Shown here piece by piece: positions 55,526 to 63,966 of a stretch of 64,000 bases of DNA. The notes below the pieces were generated by a model. The model had not been told where the DNA came from. It did no database searches and saw only the letters and a program-made list of their open reading frames with translations. A program made the position numbers and the translations under genes. Numbering within the stretch: the stretch's first letter is position 1; every line of letters begins with the position of its first letter. Source of the DNA: a bacterium (GTDB lineage: Bacteria > Vulcanimicrobiota > JABDET01); contig JAKAVV010000002.1 of the NCBI GenBank assembly GCA_021817145.1, forward strand, positions 124,001 through 188,000, written 5' to 3'.

Positions 55526-56788
55526 TTACTGGGCTTCTTCAATAAAGTCCTGAATGATTTTCCGATCTGAATCCTCAATATGAATGAATTCAAGCCCTAT
55601 GCTCCATTCACTATTCGTTGGTTTTTGCCATGCAACCTTCACAATGGCTTTTACAGTGAGATTCGTTTCAGGCTTCAAAGTAATTCTCATGGGAAATTGA
55701 TAATGTTCATTGATAGGAAAAGGATTTTTAACTCTGATTCCTCCAACAGAAATATCCTCTGTATAAACTTTAATTGGAGTCGAATTTGCGCTGATATAAT
55801 ACCGAACCTCTAGATGATGATTAAGCCTTCTGTACTGACGCCTCTCGTCACCTTTATTTTCAAAGACTTGATTCAATGGATTCATTTTCCCGTCTAACAT
55901 TAAAGATTTTCTCATCTCTCCCTCCTTTTTCCCCTTATCGGCAGAAAAAATGGAGGGGTTTAACTGCTGGAAAGCCTGGAAGGCATTTTCTAACAAACAA
56001 GCTGTTGTGACTGGCCCAACCCCTCCTGGAACAGGAGAGAGCCAGGAAGCCGTTTCAGAAACAGAAGAGGCATCCACATCCCCCACAAGTTTGCCGTCTG
56101 CAGCATGAATTCCCACATCAATAACAGCAGCCCCAGAAGACACCCAATCTCTTTCTACTAACCGAGGGGAACCAGCAGAAACCACTAGAATATCAGCCAT
56201 TCGCGTCATTCTCTTAATCTCAACAGTTTTCCGGTGGCAAACTGTAACTGTCGCATTTTCATGCAGAAAAAGGTGAGCAAGAGGTTTCCCAACAGCCAGG
56301 CTTCTACCGATAATCACAACGGATCTTCCCGCCATTTTTATATCATGCTCTTTTAGCAAGTATAATACAGCTTTTGCTGTGCAAGGAATAAAAACTGGGG
56401 CATCAGAATAAAGAAAACCTTGATTAAGAGGATGAATTCCATCCAGATCTTTTTGAGGAGAAATTTTCTTGCATACTTCCTGAGGATTCAACTGAGGCGG
56501 AAAGGGAGCTTGAATAAGAATTCCATGGATCTCCTGATGACGATTAAATTCCTCCAGTCTTCTTAAAAATTCTCCTGGAGAAATATCTATCGGGAACTTT
56601 TCCATTTGAAAGAAAAACCCGACTTCTCTACAAGCTTTTTGCACAGCAGAAATATATTTTACAGACGCGGGATCCTCTCCAAAAGCGAGATAAGCCACTC
56701 CTGGTTTTAAAGGGAAACTCTCTGCTTGTTTAGAAAGCCGATGTTTAATCTTGTCAGCAAGAGCTCGCCCATCTAGTAAATTTACCAC
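55526..56788 (-). CDS. folD: FolD-like methylenetetrahydrofolate dehydrogenase fused to PilZ
   Basis: The 420-residue protein has a FolD part (1-285) and a PilZ part (about 310-420). FolD makes and hydrolyses 5,10-methenyltetrahydrofolate. GILIQAPFP, KDLDGIHPLN, GRSLAVGKPLA and PVPGGVGPVTTACLL are normal. The key lysine is not: the YxxxKxK motif around human Lys56 reads YISAVQK, with Val at the Lys position, a change that in other enzymes removes cyclohydrolase activity. The PilZ part has the c-di-GMP-binding signature RRQYRR and the EDISVGGIRV box. A ribosome binding site and ATG within the linker (55915) suggest PilZ may also be made alone. Confidence 0.88.
   Translation of the reverse strand: MVNLLDGRALADKIKHRLSKQAESFPLKPGVAYLAFGEDPASVKYISAVQKACREVGFFFQMEKFPIDISPGEFLRRLEEFNRHQEIHGILIQAPFPPQLNPQEVCKKISPQKDLDGIHPLNQGFLYSDAPVFIPCTAKAVLYLLKEHDIKMAGRSVVIIGRSLAVGKPLAHLFLHENATVTVCHRKTVEIKRMTRMADILVVSAGSPRLVERDWVSSGAAVIDVGIHAADGKLVGDVDASSVSETASWLSPVPGGVGPVTTACLLENAFQAFQQLNPSIFSADKGKKEGEMRKSLMLDGKMNPLNQVFENKGDERRQYRRLNHHLEVRYYISANSTPIKVYTEDISVGGIRVKNPFPINEHYQFPMRITLKPETNLTVKAIVKVAWQKPTNSEWSIGLEFIHIEDSDRKIIQDFIEEAQ
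55913..55928 (-). promoter_or_regulatory. Internal ribosome binding site and start codon inside the FolD-PilZ frame
   Basis: On the minus strand AGGAGGG is followed by AGAG and then ATG at 55913-55915, in the same frame as the FolD-PilZ ORF (codon 292). It would start a 129-residue PilZ protein beginning MRKSLMLDG. It may be the remains of the original PilZ gene start before an in-frame fusion, and it may still work. Confidence 0.7.
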
Positions 56789-57136: not shown

Positions 57137-57790
57137 TTAAACCTGTTCCTGTGGAAAATTCTGCTGCCCCAAGGCTGCGTTGAAGTTATTAAAGGCAATC
57201 TGAGGTCCTAATATTTGAGAACCTCCATCAGTCAATAAGGGCTGCATTCCCCCTCCATCTAAAGGTTGGAAATTAATAGGAGGATCCTGAGTTTGTGTTT
57301 CAGTCACTTGATCCCAGGGATCCTGTCCATAAGGATCTTGTCCTCCACACCATGGATTAGGTTCTCTCTGAAAATCTGTATTGGTTTGCCCCCCAAAAAA
57401 CCCATTATTTTGCTGCACCTGCAGGTTCCCATTAGGATCAAGGGTATAAGTCGTGGTCTGAGGGCCGTCGGGTAATTGCCCTAGTATCCTTGCCCCACCC
57501 TGTGAAGTGGTAACCTGTACAACCCGATCCCCATTCTGATTGGTATAAACATTATAATTCTTCCCATCAGCAGAATAAGTTGTATGCTGGATCCCATTCT
57601 GATCCGTGTAAGTATGGGTCTCATACTGCCCATTAAAAGCATTTTGCGTTGCTTGATCAACAGTTGCCAGATCATTGTTGTACTGCTGATCCTGAGAATT
57701 AAATGGCATCACAGGGGAAACCCATGAATTGGGGCCAAATTCATCCCATGGATTAGGCGGTTGATTGAAAGATTGCAAAACTCCACCCAT
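57137..57790 (-). CDS. Gln/Asn-rich protein A, possible substrate of the ATP-grasp ligase
   Basis: The 217-residue protein is not a family I know. It begins MGGVLQSFN and lacks a signal peptide. It is rich in Gln, Asn, Thr and Tyr, with turns of NQNG and DPNG type that suggest repeated beta hairpins. The first about 170 residues match protein B (58951-59637) closely, from PNSWVSPVMPFN to YGQDPWDQV. The last about 45 are unlike B and end NFPQEQV. A conserved front and variable tail is how leader and core parts look in ribosomal peptide precursors. AAGGAGGTCG precedes the ATG. The divergent neighbour is the ATP-grasp gene. Confidence 0.7.
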   Translation of the reverse strand: MGGVLQSFNQPPNPWDEFGPNSWVSPVMPFNSQDQQYNNDLATVDQATQNAFNGQYETHTYTDQNGIQHTTYSADGKNYNVYTNQNGDRVVQVTTSQGGARILGQLPDGPQTTTYTLDPNGNLQVQQNNGFFGGQTNTDFQREPNPWCGGQDPYGQDPWDQVTETQTQDPPINFQPLDGGGMQPLLTDGGSQILGPQIAFNNFNAALGQQNFPQEQV

Positions 57791-57828
57791 TTTAAACGAC
57801 CTCCTTAAAATTAATTTTAACTCTTTCC

Positions 57829-57862
57829 CAATTTCACTTCACAGGGTGATTTTTAAGTGATT
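57829..57862. promoter_or_regulatory. 34-base element shared with the second Gln/Asn-rich gene
   Basis: The sequence from 57829 to 57862 is identical to 59676-59709. It holds an inverted repeat TCACTT (57834-57839) and AAGTGA (57855-57860) and lies between gene A and the ATP-grasp gene, so it could be an operator or promoter part for both. Similarity extends to the ribosome binding site of gene A. Confidence 0.6.
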
Positions 57863-57938
57863 TTAAACTTGATTTCAATGTTAGTATTTGTCAATGAACA
57901 GGAAAAAGCAATCTCATGAGAAAAGTGTAAGGTCAATC

Positions 57939-58883
57939 ATGAATAGCCAGAAAAAGCGATTTGGATTGATATCGGATCCTCGCGATCCACATACTCTTTC
58001 TATTCAAAAACAATTAAGTGAATTAGGGCATGATCCCTTAATTATTGATTCCTCTGGCAGTGGGAAGTTTTCTTTTCTTGAGGGAACATGGAAGTATAAT
58101 GGACAGACTCTGGATGAAATAAAAGTTTTCTATTTTCGGAATATGCTGAGCCAAACCCCTGCTGTCAGACAGGAAGGGGGAGAGTATAAACTGTACAGAG
58201 ATTGGTACACCCAGTTCATGCATATTCGGGAGATTTACGGAGTCCAACTTTCCTGGATGTATGGATTGCAGGCTGCGGGAAAGATTCTTGTGAATCCGCC
58301 AACTCCATCGGTTGTTGGAGTGTTGAAACCCCATCAGCTTTACGTTTTGCAAAAAGCGGGTTTTCCTGTCCCAGCTTCTGTGATTACGCGTAATCCAGAA
58401 GAAGCAAGAGCCTTTATTCAATCCAAAGAAAAAGTAATTTACAAACCAGCCTCTGGAGGGGCTTTTGCTGAACTGGTAGATGAAAAAGCAGTGCAGCGTT
58501 TGGATGCGATTCAAAGCCATTATGTGATTTTCCAGGAATTCGTGGAAGGAACAGACATTCGAGTTACAGCTGCTGAAGATGAAATTCTAGCTGCTGCTGA
58601 ACTGGAGAGCCAGGCTGTTGATTTTCGCGCCACTCCAGGGTACCTGGAAAACAAAATCGCTGTCAGTCCCTGTGAAATTCCTGATGAAATTGTTAAACTG
58701 TGTTTTAAAGGATTAAAACTCCTTGGACTGTATTACTCAGGAATAGATTTAAAAAGGACGCGAGAGGGAAAATATGTTTTCCTAGAATTCAATCTCCATC
58801 CTGCTTTTCTATGGATAGAACAAAAACTGAAAAAACCGATTTCACGCGGTATTGCCAATCTCCTGGTGAAATTAAGCGCGTGA
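57939..58883 (+). CDS. ATP-grasp ligase resembling graspetide (MvdC/MvdD-type) maturases
   Basis: The protein is 314 residues if started at the ATG at 57939, which has TAAGG in front; the frame is open from a TTG at 57888. It has an N-terminal domain (RFGLISDPRDPHTLSIQKQL), then the ATP-grasp fold with KPHQLYVLQKAGFPVPASVI, VIYKPASGG, FQEFVEGTDIRV, AAELESQAVDFRATPG, YYSGIDLKR and FLEFNLHPAFLWIEQKL. The order DIRV, SQ-DFR, DLK, FLExN, LWIE with a C-terminal PISRGIANLL matches graspetide ligases, which link Ser, Thr or Lys to Asp or Glu side chains of a precursor. RimK-type glutamate ligases are the alternative. It lies between two related Gln/Asn-rich genes. Confidence 0.8.
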   Translation: MNSQKKRFGLISDPRDPHTLSIQKQLSELGHDPLIIDSSGSGKFSFLEGTWKYNGQTLDEIKVFYFRNMLSQTPAVRQEGGEYKLYRDWYTQFMHIREIYGVQLSWMYGLQAAGKILVNPPTPSVVGVLKPHQLYVLQKAGFPVPASVITRNPEEARAFIQSKEKVIYKPASGGAFAELVDEKAVQRLDAIQSHYVIFQEFVEGTDIRVTAAEDEILAAAELESQAVDFRATPGYLENKIAVSPCEIPDEIVKLCFKGLKLLGLYYSGIDLKRTREGKYVFLEFNLHPAFLWIEQKLKKPISRGIANLLVKLSA

Positions 58884-58914
58884 GGCAGACTGGACTTGAA
58901 GATTCAATCTACCT

Positions 58915-58936
58915 CACGCAGCAGCGTGGTGTGTTT
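58915..58936 (+). terminator. Weak terminator after the ATP-grasp gene
   Basis: CACGC and GCGTG pair around AGCA, with GTGTGTTTTATT after them. The stem is only five pairs. It lies between two convergent genes and may serve both strands poorly. Confidence 0.4.
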
Positions 58937-58950
58937 TATTACGGGCAATT

Positions 58951-59637
58951 TTAACCGTCGTCTGTTCCGCCGCCAGGCATGAAGCTCATCATCATTGAAT
59001 GGACTGTTCCGGGTCCCTGCGTTCCTGTTGGCATTGGATAATTAATGAAACCCGGCTCATTTGGAGGGTTTTCCCAAATAGGGAAAGGAGGAGTCTGAGT
59101 TTGTGTTTCATTCACTTGATCCCAAGGATCCTGTCCATAAGGATCTTGTTGTCCTCCACACCATGGATTAGACTCTCTCTGAAAATCTGTATTGGTTTGC
59201 CCCCCAAAAAATCCATTGTTTTGCTGCACCTGCAGATTCCCATTAGGATCAAGGGTATAAGTTGTAGTGCTGGGAGGGGTGTATTGACCATCCTCCCCCT
59301 CACAGTAAGAACTGATACCCTGGGAACCTGGAGTTGTAACCTGTACAACCCGATCTCCATTCTGATTTAAGAAAACATTATAATTGTTCCCATTCGCAGA
59401 ATAAGTTGTGTGCTGGATCCCATTCTGATCCGTATAAGTGTTAGTATCGTACTGCCCATTAAAAGCATTTTGTGTTGCTTGATCAACAGTTGCCAGATCA
59501 TTGTTATACTGCTGGTCTTGAGGATTAAACGGCATTACAGGGGAAACCCATGAATTGGGACCAAACTCATCCTGTGGGTTAGGCTGTGGATTACAACCAT
59601 ATCCTCCACTGCCAAAAAGTCCTCCAATTCCACCCAT
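58951..59637 (-). CDS. Gln/Asn-rich protein B, possible substrate of the ATP-grasp ligase
   Basis: The 228-residue paralogue of protein A begins MGGIGGLFGSGGYG and shares the long middle part (PNSWVSPVMPFNPQDQQYNN, NGQYDTNTYTDQNGIQHTTY, YTLDPNGNLQVQQNNGFFGG, NPWCGG, YGQDPWDQV). An insertion (SYCEGEDGQYTPPS) and the last about 47 residues differ, ending MSFMPGGGTDDG. There is no signal peptide or membrane segment. AAAGGAGGTCG precedes the ATG, and the 76 bases upstream resemble those of gene A. It is convergent with the ATP-grasp gene and divergent from the response regulator. Confidence 0.7.
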   Translation of the reverse strand: MGGIGGLFGSGGYGCNPQPNPQDEFGPNSWVSPVMPFNPQDQQYNNDLATVDQATQNAFNGQYDTNTYTDQNGIQHTTYSANGNNYNVFLNQNGDRVVQVTTPGSQGISSYCEGEDGQYTPPSTTTYTLDPNGNLQVQQNNGFFGGQTNTDFQRESNPWCGGQQDPYGQDPWDQVNETQTQTPPFPIWENPPNEPGFINYPMPTGTQGPGTVHSMMMSFMPGGGTDDG

Positions 59638-59675: not shown

Positions 59676-59709
59676 CAATTTCACTTCACAGGGTGATTTT
59701 TAAGTGATT
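59676..59709. promoter_or_regulatory. Second copy of the 34-base element
   Basis: Identical over 34 bases to 57829-57862, with the same TCACTT and AAGTGA inverted repeat. It lies between gene B and the response regulator gene, so a factor that binds it could control the paired genes together. Confidence 0.6.
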
Positions 59710-59846: not shown

Positions 59847-62126
59847 ATGGAGAAAATCCTGCTGGTTGAAGATGATATTCATGTCCTGAAAAGTCTTGCA
59901 AAGCTATTAAGAGAAAGTGGATATGATGTAGAGACAGCTGCCAGTGGGCTGGAAGCTGTTGAGCTGGCGCAGAAAGATGAATTCTGCATGGTGATTACAG
60001 ATGTTAGAATGCCTGGAATAGATGGAATTGAAGCTCTAGGAAAGATAAAATCATACCAGCCAGACGCCAGGAGATTAGTTATCACAGGTTATGCGGGGGA
60101 TGATGCTCCAATCAGGGCAATCCATCTTTCTGTAGATGATTATTTAATGAAACCCTTCCCCCCCGAAAAATTTTTAGAAAGTGTAAAAACAGCCATTCTC
60201 AAATATCAATCTGAGATAAAAAAAGAAGAGCTTACGATTTTCTCTTCTATTTTGCAAAAAATCTTTCGGACTCTTACCCAAGAAATCGAAACGAAAATTC
60301 CACAAAAAGAAGGACGGTCTGTGCGAATGGCTGAATTGGGAACTAAACTGGCTGAGACAGCAAAACTAGAACCAAAACGAGTTGGAAGACTCTCCTTCCT
60401 TTTATCTTTCCATGATCTAGGTTATCTCACTTTCTCAGATAAAGAGATGGAAGATCTGCTCTCCAGCAAACATATAGAAACTGGATGCAAAATTTTTAAA
60501 GCAGTCCCAGAAGGGGAAATGCTCTCCTTTTTATATGAAAAACATCACTCTCCTTTTAATAAATCGAGTGAAATGGTTCCTGTTGAATCGCAAATCCTTT
60601 CTCTCTGCGAAACCTTTGAGAATTTACTTTCCAAAGGACTCAGCCAAAAAGAAGCATTCCAAACCCTTACAAAAGATCCGGGAAATTTTTGGGAGCCTTC
60701 ACTTCTAGAGAGGCTCGAAGAAGTTCTGTTTAATCCTCTGCACAAGCTCTCAGAAAAGCCATCTCTAAAAACTTATGAAATTCTGCTGCACCTTGGAAAA
60801 ACTTACACCCTTACAGGAGAAATCGAAACAGGAAAAATGGCTCTCCAGAAGCTTCTAGAACAAGAGCAGAAGATAGAAGATTCCGATTTCAAATTTAGAC
60901 TTCACCTCGCTCTAGCGCAAAATCTGATACGAGACCAAAAATTTTCGGCAGGGGAAGAAGAAGCCTGCAGAACCCTTGAAACAGCTCTTTCTTTAAACCT
61001 CAGTCCTCTTACTATCTCTTCTATTTTTCTTGAAATTATTCTGTCAAGACTTTTCCTGTCAAAAACCGAGAAAGTGGAAGAACTGCTGGAAAAAGGAAGA
61101 GCTAATTTTGAAAAGTTTGGAGACAAGCGAAATCTTGCGCGGACAGAATTGTACTCTGCTCTTTTTTCAGCGATGTCTGGAAATAAGGAAACAGCAAAAA
61201 AACATTTTGCCAATTGCAAAATAATCGTGGAAGAGGAGAAAATCGAAGACTTCTGGGGATCCGAATCTCTTGCTTTAAGGTTTAGGGAAAAGGTCCCTGA
61301 TTTTCTCGAACTCCTCAATTTCGATCCAACAAATACAGCTCAGGAAAAAGGAGTTCAATTCTACTCTTTCGGGCCTATTCGGGTTTATCGAAACGAAGCG
61401 ATAATCCCAGAAGAAGAATGGAAAAGCAAAAAAGGAAAGATCCTCTTAAACTACCTTCTTCTAAATCAAGATCGCCCTGTGTCAGAAGATAAATTGTGCG
61501 ATCTGTTCTGGCCTCATGGGGATCCTGAGAGATCCCGAAAAAATCTTCATCATATTATTTATCTTTTAAGAAGAACTTTGGAGCCCAACTTAAAAGAGGG
61601 GGGAGATTCGCAGTATATCCTTTCCCAGCACAATGCTTATCAATTTAATAAAAGCTCAAATTACTGGTGGGATGTTCATGAATTTAGAGAAAATCTACAG
61701 AAAGCTCAACAGTTATGGAGTTCAGGTGAAGCTGAAAAAGCAATTGAAAAGATAAGAAGACTGGAAGATCTCTATACAGGGGATCTTCTGGAAGATAATC
61801 TTGAAGAAACCTGGTGCGATTTCGAGCGGGAAAAATTGAAAGAAGCTTTCCTGGAACTGCTGCTGACTGCTGCTGCTTTCTATGAGGAGAAACAGGAGCA
61901 TGTCATGGCTCTTGAATTCGCAAACAAAGCCTTGACTCTTGATCCTCTCCGAGAAAAAACCGCTCATTTGCTCATCAAGCTCTTATATAAAAGCGGAAAA
62001 AGGACAGAAGCGATTCGAAAATACCAAACCTGGTGCTCACAATTGGAAGAAGAAATGAATTTAAAACCCTCAGATGAATTTGCGGCTCTTTATGAAAAAA
62101 TGACGATAAGCAGCAGAATCTCTTAA
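59847..62126 (+). CDS. Response regulator with REC, HD-like, TPR and SARP/BTAD domains
   Basis: The 759-residue regulator starts with a receiver domain (1-120; Asp52 in MVITDVRMPG, Lys102 in YLMKPF). Residues about 130-290 resemble a degenerate HD-GYP domain (FHDLGYL at His189-Asp190, EKHHSPF at 231-237) without the GYP motif. Helical repeats follow (about 310-500). A winged-helix, SARP-type DNA-binding domain (about 505-600; SKKGKILLNYLLLN, DKLCDLFWP, SRKNLHHIIYLLRR) and a BTAD helical domain (about 610-755) complete it. It should activate genes when phosphorylated, presumably by the kinase encoded convergently 10 bases away. Confidence 0.88.
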   Translation: MEKILLVEDDIHVLKSLAKLLRESGYDVETAASGLEAVELAQKDEFCMVITDVRMPGIDGIEALGKIKSYQPDARRLVITGYAGDDAPIRAIHLSVDDYLMKPFPPEKFLESVKTAILKYQSEIKKEELTIFSSILQKIFRTLTQEIETKIPQKEGRSVRMAELGTKLAETAKLEPKRVGRLSFLLSFHDLGYLTFSDKEMEDLLSSKHIETGCKIFKAVPEGEMLSFLYEKHHSPFNKSSEMVPVESQILSLCETFENLLSKGLSQKEAFQTLTKDPGNFWEPSLLERLEEVLFNPLHKLSEKPSLKTYEILLHLGKTYTLTGEIETGKMALQKLLEQEQKIEDSDFKFRLHLALAQNLIRDQKFSAGEEEACRTLETALSLNLSPLTISSIFLEIILSRLFLSKTEKVEELLEKGRANFEKFGDKRNLARTELYSALFSAMSGNKETAKKHFANCKIIVEEEKIEDFWGSESLALRFREKVPDFLELLNFDPTNTAQEKGVQFYSFGPIRVYRNEAIIPEEEWKSKKGKILLNYLLLNQDRPVSEDKLCDLFWPHGDPERSRKNLHHIIYLLRRTLEPNLKEGGDSQYILSQHNAYQFNKSSNYWWDVHEFRENLQKAQQLWSSGEAEKAIEKIRRLEDLYTGDLLEDNLEETWCDFEREKLKEAFLELLLTAAAFYEEKQEHVMALEFANKALTLDPLREKTAHLLIKLLYKSGKRTEAIRKYQTWCSQLEEEMNLKPSDEFAALYEKMTISSRIS

Positions 62127-62136
62127 CTTAATTTCC

Positions 62137-63966
62137 TCAAATCTGATTTAAAGCTCTATCAATCACTGAATCTTCTGCAGAATGGCTTTTCTCTTCGTCT
62201 TTTGCGGCTGAAAACTTTAAAACAAACTGACTCCCCTCCCCCTTTCTGCTTTCAACCTGGATCTCTCCTCCCATTGATTTAACAATTCCATAGCTTACTG
62301 AAAGCCCTAATCCAGTCCCTTTACCAATCTCTTTTGTTGTGAAAAAAGGGTCGAAAATTTTAGGAAGATTTTCTTCTAAAATTCCGCATCCATTATCTGA
62401 AAAAGAAAGACAACTTTCTCTGGAATCTCCAAACGTGTTAATTTGAATCTTTCCCGACCTCTCTTTTTTCTCAAGAATGGCGTCTCTGGCATTCGATATT
62501 AAATTAGCGAGGACTTGAACAAGATTTTCAGGGACTCCATAAATAGGCATGGTTTCCTGAAAATCTATTTTAACTTGAATATTATCAAGGCTCAACTGTC
62601 TATTCCATAAATTTAAAGCGACTTTTACAACTTCCTCCAATTTAAAATTCTTTTTTTCGTCCTGGGATTTTCTTGAAAAATTAAGCAGCTTTTGAATGAT
62701 GTTCTGACATCTTTGAGAAGCCTGTATAATGGTTTCAACAGCGTCCCCATCCTCTGGTTTTTTCTGAAGCTGCCAGGCATTCAACAAAATAGCGCCAAGG
62801 GGATTATTGATTTCATGCGCCACTCCTGCAGCAAGCTGTCCCACTGCAGCCAGCTTGCTGGTTTCAATGAGTTGAGCCTGCATGGCTTTCAACTGAATAT
62901 TAGCCTCTACCACTTCTTTAAAAAGGAAACTGTTATGGATTGAGGAAGAAAGCTGCCCCGCCAGAATCGTGAGGAACTTTTCCTGTTCCTCTCCAATAAA
63001 AGGACGGCTGAGCAAAAGATATCCAAGGGTTTCTTTTTCTGTTTTCAAGGGCATGACAGCCAGTGGAAGAAGGGGTTGAGGGAAAAGAGCTGTAGGATGA
63101 GTTACAACTCTTGCTGCTCCCCCTTTTTCGTCAAAAAAATCTTTTTCTACCAAACTTCCCGGCAGAAAATTCTGTTGGAAAATTCCACAGGATGCTCCCC
63201 TTCTAAAAAGATCTTTGTCCCTTAAATAGATGCTCCCTCCAGAGGCTTTCAATTTTTCTGTCAGAGAAGTTAAAATCTCTGGAGCCATTCCCTGAAAATC
63301 AAGAGCTGATGACAGCCTCTTTGAAAGTTCATAAATAATCTGCAGTTTTTCTTTTTCAATATACGATTTAAATCCAAATTTAAAAACAAAAAAGACCACA
63401 AAAAGTGAAAAAGGGACGAAAAGGAAAAGAGGGGCGGAAAGAACGTGTTTTATAATCGGAACAAAAGGCGCCAAAAGGTAAAATGGAAGTTCAAGAGCAT
63501 ATCCTGATCCGATTTCTTTAAAAGAAAACGTCTCTTTAAATTGTTTAGCTTGAAGCAGAAAAGTAAGAAAATCCATAAGGATGTGGAAAAAAATCGCGGC
63601 TGCCAGCGGAAAGAAAAGAGTGGATGAAAATTGGGAAAAGTTGAACTTTCCTCCAATCTCTTCGTAGAAAAGAACAGTGATAAAAGTTGAAAAAGCATAA
63701 CGGATCAAATTTGAGGAAAGCGATCTTAAATTCAAGCGCAGTTTTCGAAAAAAAATCAATCTTCTTAAAAGAAAGAAGAGCAGAACCCCTAAAAAAACGG
63801 GGAAAATCGAAAGTGAACCCATGAGAAGGATATAAGAAAAAATCAAAGGATTATCAAAGCCAAAAGTAATGCTAGACCAGGGAAACCGAACGTATGTAAA
63901 AAGAGCAAGCGCAAGAAAAACCATCGCCATCCCCATTTCTGATAGAGAGACATGCAGCTCATCCAT
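62137..63966 (-). CDS. Membrane histidine kinase with GAF domain
   Basis: The 609-residue kinase has about six membrane helices in the first 200 residues, a GAF domain (about 205-350, with [17 protein letters not shown]), a short coiled coil, and the transmitter. His384 lies in [19 protein letters not shown], and the ATPase domain has [18 protein letters not shown] and [12 protein letters not shown]. The Asn and Gly boxes are intact. No extracytoplasmic sensor domain stands out, so the membrane part or the GAF domain may sense the signal. It is convergent with the SARP-type regulator and probably its partner. Upstream of its start (63967-64000) nothing further is visible. Confidence 0.92.

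Follow-up and report, generated by a model that had tools for sequence, protein, structure and literature searches.

A putative SARP-regulated locus of graspetide type with a large folded precursor in a bacterium of the phylum Vulcanimicrobiota

The stretch of DNA analysed here (64,000 nucleotides of contig JAKAVV010000002.1, hereafter the window) contains an ATP-grasp ligase gene flanked by two paralogous genes, A and B, and followed by the genes of a response regulator and a sensor histidine kinase. We find it somewhat more probable than not that this is a SARP-regulated locus of graspetide type with a large folded precursor, B, and that the ligase acts on the C-terminal tail of this protein, i.e. 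the modification itself is a prediction. The features of the locus are collected in Table 1.

Table 1. Genes, protein regions and predicted regulatory sites of the locus, in positions of the window.
Feature	Position	Strand	Description
A	57137-57790	(-)	217 aa; B paralogue without the conserved core
A divergent tail, about residues 172-217	57140..57277	(-)	core motif absent
Predicted SARP operator/promoter of A	57832..57862	(-)	AATCAC-N5-AATCAC and GTGAAA; also upstream of the divergently transcribed ligase
ATP-grasp ligase	ORF 57888-58883, open from TTG 57888; 57939..58883 from ATG	(+)	314 aa from ATG 57939; assigned to the graspetide-ligase clade
B	58951-59637	(-)	228 aa; predicted substrate: folded domain and disordered tail with a predicted core at the end
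B predicted core, residues 214-228, SMMMSFMPGGGTDDG	58954..58998	(-)	predicted from tail conservation and motif fit
B front domain, residues 27-182	59092..59559	(-)	AlphaFold model: one helix and an eight-stranded beta sheet
Predicted SARP operator/promoter of B	59679..59709	(-)	sequence the same as that of A over 31 bases
Response regulator	59847..62126	(+)	receiver, HD and BTAD (SARP) domains; may activate A and B
Sensor histidine kinase	62137..63966	(-)	HisKA and HATPase_c; candidate partner of the response regulator; a longer start is seen and the gene may extend past the given ORF start

The order of the ATP-grasp, B, response regulator and kinase genes is identical in the window's genome (G000) and in a second genome of the same genus (G001, MAG FK4.bin95), and tRNA-Leu and folD flank the locus on the side away from the response regulator. 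The A homologue of G001 is found on another contig, where it adjoins folD, i.e. the ligase and B adjoin in both genomes (2 out of 2) while A has moved between them. B is in both cases the gene beside the ligase, which is the position expected of the precursor gene in a graspetide system. The ligase most likely starts at the ATG given in Table 1, since the start of the G001 orthologue aligns there. An RNA family search of the locus returned the tRNA-Leu as its sole match. It had been remarked in an earlier first-pass annotation of this DNA that no transporter or protease is visible, and this holds within a few kilobases of the genes; neither a protease nor an exporter was detected in the conserved neighbourhood of the genes in either genome, and accepted graspetide loci typically contain no peptidase gene either (PMC8939145). 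The folD gene of the window (55526-56788) is fused in one frame to a C-terminal PilZ domain, and the folD of G001 ends without it.

The first-pass annotation had recognised in the ATP-grasp protein the motif order of graspetide maturases, and this reading is borne out. The motifs are present in the order named (DIRV 221-224, SQAVDFR 239-245, DLK 285-287, FLEFN 296-300, LWIE 306-309, PI..GIA..L 315-323), and the residues kept include those that bind ATP and Mg, the lysines, [DE]xR, D(F/Y/W)R (here D-F-R), D285, E298, N300 and WxE...PI. The best PDB match is 7drm (PsnB, the plesiocin ligase); it extends over residues 24-316, i.e. nearly the full length including the N-terminal domain (E=2.6e-33), whereas RimK (5zct) is matched in the ATP-grasp domain only (E=4.8e-6). 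The G001 orthologue gives the same ranking with PsnB best, and the identity of the window's ligase to PsnB is 34% in the ATP-grasp domain. In a maximum-likelihood tree of this domain, which held no MptN sequence, the ligase is grouped with CdnC, MdnC, AMdnB, 9bou and PsnB, apart from RimK/LysX (support 99.7/100). On this comparative evidence we assign the ligase to the graspetide-ligase clade and not to RimK/LysX, and RimK as the family is ruled out by the two E-values and the tree. The divergence between the two species (dS 1.10, dN 0.14) points to purifying selection.

The search with graspetide models, which had been proposed as a check, is favourable in one respect and not in another. The best NCBIfam model is TIGR04187, "ATP-grasp ribosomal peptide maturase" (105 bits), followed by the alpha-glutamate ligase MptN (74.5 bits), MvdD (74), MvdC (65) and the RimK family (56), but every score is under its curated cut-off (350 bits for TIGR04187, 475 and 425 for the TIGR04184/TIGR04185 models of MvdD and MvdC, 143 for the RimK family). 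Sub-threshold matches to TIGR04187 were also found in 7 out of 14 control genomes, E. coli among them; a match of this kind has by itself no diagnostic value, and the family is settled better by the structure search and the tree. The cut-offs of the graspetide models are in addition narrow here, because no genome of the phylum reaches that of TIGR04187. Among plasmid records, the nearest full-length relatives of the ligase are from Burkholderia and Pedobacter, 4 out of 9 relatives are annotated as tgmB, ATP-grasp ribosomal peptide maturase, and the one annotated neighbourhood contains lasso-peptide genes and nothing named like A or B. A first scan of a genome collection with the ligase alone gave no matches, and a structure prediction of the ligase from two sequences was unusable (pLDDT 45).

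The overall identity of A and B is 75%, rising to 84% over residues 14-186 of B, and their ends are unrelated, which confirms the earlier description of a ligase lying between two paralogues that match over some 170 residues and then diverge. The annotation had taken this fixed front with varying tails as the signature of a leader and a core, and here the alignment of the homologues says otherwise. Three of the four full-length homologues, namely B of the window and both B and A of G001, have the common end ...GFINYPxP...[ST]xMMS(x)(M/L)PGGGTDDG, so that the tail is conserved rather than variable, and A of the window is the only one without it. The fixed front with a divergent tail is a trait of the window's A and not of the family. 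A frameshift of the B tail was considered as the origin of the A tail and ruled out, as TDDG is present in no reading frame of the A DNA. The fronts of A and B in the window differ by a dS of 0.46 as compared with 2.0 (A/A) and 1.8 (B/B) between species; homogenisation within the genome, as after gene conversion, has thus affected the front together with the upstream element but spared the tail. Such homogenisation explains the sharp boundary between the conserved and the divergent part better, and without a leader/core argument. We therefore regard as very improbable the model originally proposed, i.e. a RiPP system in which A and B are two different precursors whose leader is fixed and whose cores are hypervariable: even though the tails differ sharply in the window's genome and tandem divergent precursors are known elsewhere (PMC8939145), three other homologues share a single tail, the boundary is accounted for, and the tail of A contains no core motif and has only 2 Ser/Thr and 3 Asp/Glu in its last 45 residues. 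The locus is instructive in this respect, as it shows how gene conversion may mimic a leader/core pattern.

The front domain is also found in three short stand-alone proteins (one in G000, two in G001) that have neither the tail nor a ligase neighbour, and it is therefore not a dedicated leader. The AlphaFold model of B has a pLDDT of about 84-91 over most of residues 31-100 and 121-140, and the tail is predicted to be disordered from residue 186, beside the folded domain; a search of the B fold against the PDB gave no match at E<=0.001. The stand-alone relatives (L043:7211-7744, L044:7489-7962 and L045:7767-8279) are without the Q/N-rich tail. An M50 protease-PqqD-HlyD fusion (L044:12207-14840), of a kind seen in peptide export systems, is encoded at a distance of about 4 kb from one of these stand-alone genes.

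The conserved tail of the three homologues fits the pattern [ST]xxxSx(7-8)DD as well as [ST]xxx[ST]x(6-10)D. The core signature published for one branch of graspetide precursors (branch 1) is TxxxTx(6-10)Dx(1-4)D (PMC8939145), from which the present tail differs in having Ser for the second Thr and in having the two Asp adjacent. The core motif occurs by chance in 0.2-6% of shuffled tails, so each match is modest when taken singly, but its conservation in three homologues whose silent sites are near saturation adds weight. B contains no lysine in either genome, and because of this only ester links would be possible. A leader-type motif, Phhx(1,2)h, is present as PVMPF at residue 22-33 in three of the four proteins and is absent from A of G001; it is expected by chance in 12-14% of shuffled sequences. 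No further protein with the same tail was found in the two genomes, and one of the three, A of G001, has the core yet does not adjoin the ligase. The position of the conserved region at the extreme C-terminus also invites another explanation, in which a ligase like RimK or MptN adds amino acids to the C-terminus of the TDDG tail (or to an Asp side chain) and no ring is formed. RimK itself extends a C-terminus, and MptN is the second-best model. We nevertheless consider this unlikely, since the score of the graspetide model exceeds that of MptN, PsnB leads the structure matches by many orders of magnitude, and the tree, again with MptN not in it, places the ligase with the graspetide ligases.

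The annotation had further noticed an element common to the upstream regions of A and B. Its presence is confirmed: the core, AATCACTTAAAAATCAC, recurs unchanged at 57846-57862(-) and 59693-59709(-), and the element consists of a direct repeat, AATCAC-N5-AATCAC, with a period of 11 bp. In its strict form (17 bases, one mismatch allowed) the element has 3 sites in each of the two genomes, and the reversed pattern has none. A wider form was derived from the strict sites and one further G000 site with one mismatch, and it matches perfectly at 4 sites in G000 and 3 in G001, with nothing under two mismatches elsewhere; as this form merely describes the sites from which it was derived, it is the lack of near-matches that carries information. 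Each of the seven sites is upstream of a gene and on its coding strand. In G000 these genes are A, B, one for an MGG-repeat protein and one, beyond the kinase, for a third low-complexity protein; in G001 they are A, the gene of the third protein and that of an ETPELPETPE-repeat protein, and B of this genome has a degenerate copy of the operator only.

The response regulator, which adjoins B in both genomes, matches the Pfam domains Response_reg (90.5 bits) and BTAD (70.2 bits, and 63.5 in G001), whereas the OmpR-type DNA-binding domain Trans_reg_C is slightly under its cut-off of 26.2 bits (25.6, and 25.0 in G001). The classical sites of SARP regulators are 11-bp direct repeats (PMC10936776, PMC5930380). 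Hexamers resembling a -10 box were seen by eye about 8-13 bp downstream of the element, where the SARP criterion is 8 bp from the 3' repeat. By analogy, we infer that the response regulator may bind the element, and the locus thus offers a concrete candidate operator for a SARP-type two-component regulator. We also noted a set of proteins that start with MGG(I/V) and either are of low complexity or contain amphipathic repeats (L073:461-2001, L046:556-1998, L069:4606-5856); one protein of this kind has a PI3/PI4-kinase-like domain, and one (L073:1570-2001) has the operator of A and B. One operator gene of G001 encodes long EAPELPETPEFPELGEIV repeats that reach both contig ends (L070:1-460 and L123:7693-8190, at the ends of C17 and C30).

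In 149 genomes of the phylum, and in 84,980 species scanned by pattern, relatives of A and B were found solely in the window's genome and in G001; a borderline match in G050, obtained with a single-sequence query, was not confirmed by profile. Viral contigs, plasmids and PHROGs contain no relatives of A or B, and a transferred or phage-borne element was ruled out on this ground. The expectation that the ligase would have A/B-type neighbours in related genomes holds in both genomes that carry it. The first-pass annotation had also named what would speak against its proposal, namely best matches to RimK or other metabolic families, or A and B genes found mostly away from an ATP-grasp gene: the best matches are graspetide ligases, but the ligase gene adjoins only 3 of the 7 family members in the two genomes (A and B of the window, B of G001). 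The main rival explanation is that the ligase and A/B are mere neighbours, A and B being members of a SARP regulon of secreted or surface-type low-complexity proteins while the ligase acts elsewhere. The operator does precede other low-complexity genes that have no ligase neighbour, most members of the front-domain family are away from the ligase, and the conserved tail might serve as a signal for sorting or assembly. We still hold this explanation to be doubtful, though it deserves to be taken seriously, because the ATP-grasp gene and B adjoin in both genomes despite the move of A, and the tail has the hydroxyl and carboxyl pattern used by such ligases and no lysine.

In the graspetide-type reading that we prefer, the histidine kinase and the SARP-type response regulator would switch on B, A and a few other low-complexity proteins through the 11-bp direct-repeat operator. 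The ligase would recognise B, perhaps through the folded N-terminal domain, and phosphorylate one or both of the Asp side chains in the C-terminal ...TDDG, which would then be joined to the hydroxyls of the conserved [ST]xMMS pair and possibly also to that of the Thr. The expected products are omega-ester loops in the last 15 residues of B, and any export or cleavage is likewise putative. A of the window would be a copy that has lost the core and whose front is still exchanged with B by gene conversion. As a more tentative extension, to which we give a low probability, we speculate that the system is dedicated to stapling a protein after translation: the ligase would modify the tail of a folded protein that stays whole and gives rise to no peptide, and the system would be switched on together with low-complexity "MGG" proteins as part of a SARP two-component regulon. 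If this were true, graspetide chemistry would go beyond short peptides made of leader and core, an enzyme found in nature would place ester loops at the terminus of a folded protein, and the locus would be a native model for the protein cyclisation that has so far been engineered with ThfB (PMC12291112).

A second graspetide-like system was observed in both genomes and in several other families of the phylum. It consists of a protein of 215-350 aa with EKxxxEK-type repeats beside two tandem ATP-grasp genes (L046:7080-9899 in G000, L047:7403-10194 in G001, and L048, L050, L051 and L052). Four of the repeat proteins, all from other families, have in most repeats a Lys with Glu or Asp at i+4, which resembles the KxxxD isopeptide motif of corallotide, and the repeat proteins often end in ...RFF. 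One of the two ligases keeps the catalytic residues, and the other has lost the metal-binding Glu and Asn (L046:8012-8956, L047:8359-9303, L050:2866-3753, L051:8376-9251, L053:493-1365); judged by its residues, the latter resembles a pseudo-enzyme that accompanies the active ligase.

Several features of the locus can be compared with known systems. Firstly, PsnB of the plesiocin system is the closest solved relative of the ligase. Plesiocin precursors are short and have repeated TTxxxxEE cores, whereas here a single core is predicted at the end of a folded protein of 211-228 aa. Secondly, the microviridin ligases MvdC and MvdD belong to the same clade and have the same order of catalytic motifs, but the present locus has no PFFARFL leader and no paired ligases, and a Lys lactam is not possible. 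Thirdly, the claim that the leader is longer than in any known graspetide, and that the locus would represent a new large-precursor class, is outdated, as large-precursor graspetides are already known: CorA, the corallotide precursor of Corallococcus exercitus (graspetide group 15), is about 22 kDa in its His-tagged form and is modified by a TIGR04187 ligase (PMC13097080). The CorA/CorB pair is similar to the present one in the type of the ligase and in the long unmodified N-terminal part (no modification in CorA 1-93), and a mature short peptide is not shown for CorA (PMC13097080). The two differ in that CorA contains five KxxxD isopeptide motifs, all internal, and requires an oxygenase as partner (PMC13097080), while B lacks lysine and carries a single Ser/Thr-Asp motif at its C-terminus, with neither an oxygenase nor a beta-lactamase as neighbour. 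Together with the engineered cyclisation of protein-sized substrates by ThfB (PMC12291112), corallotide provides the precedents for the large precursor that we propose. Finally, the regulatory part is reminiscent of the SARP promoters of Streptomyces, as a BTAD regulator adjoins the locus and 11-bp direct repeats are upstream of the putative targets; the difference is that here a two-component regulator combines the SARP module with a receiver and an HD domain in one protein.
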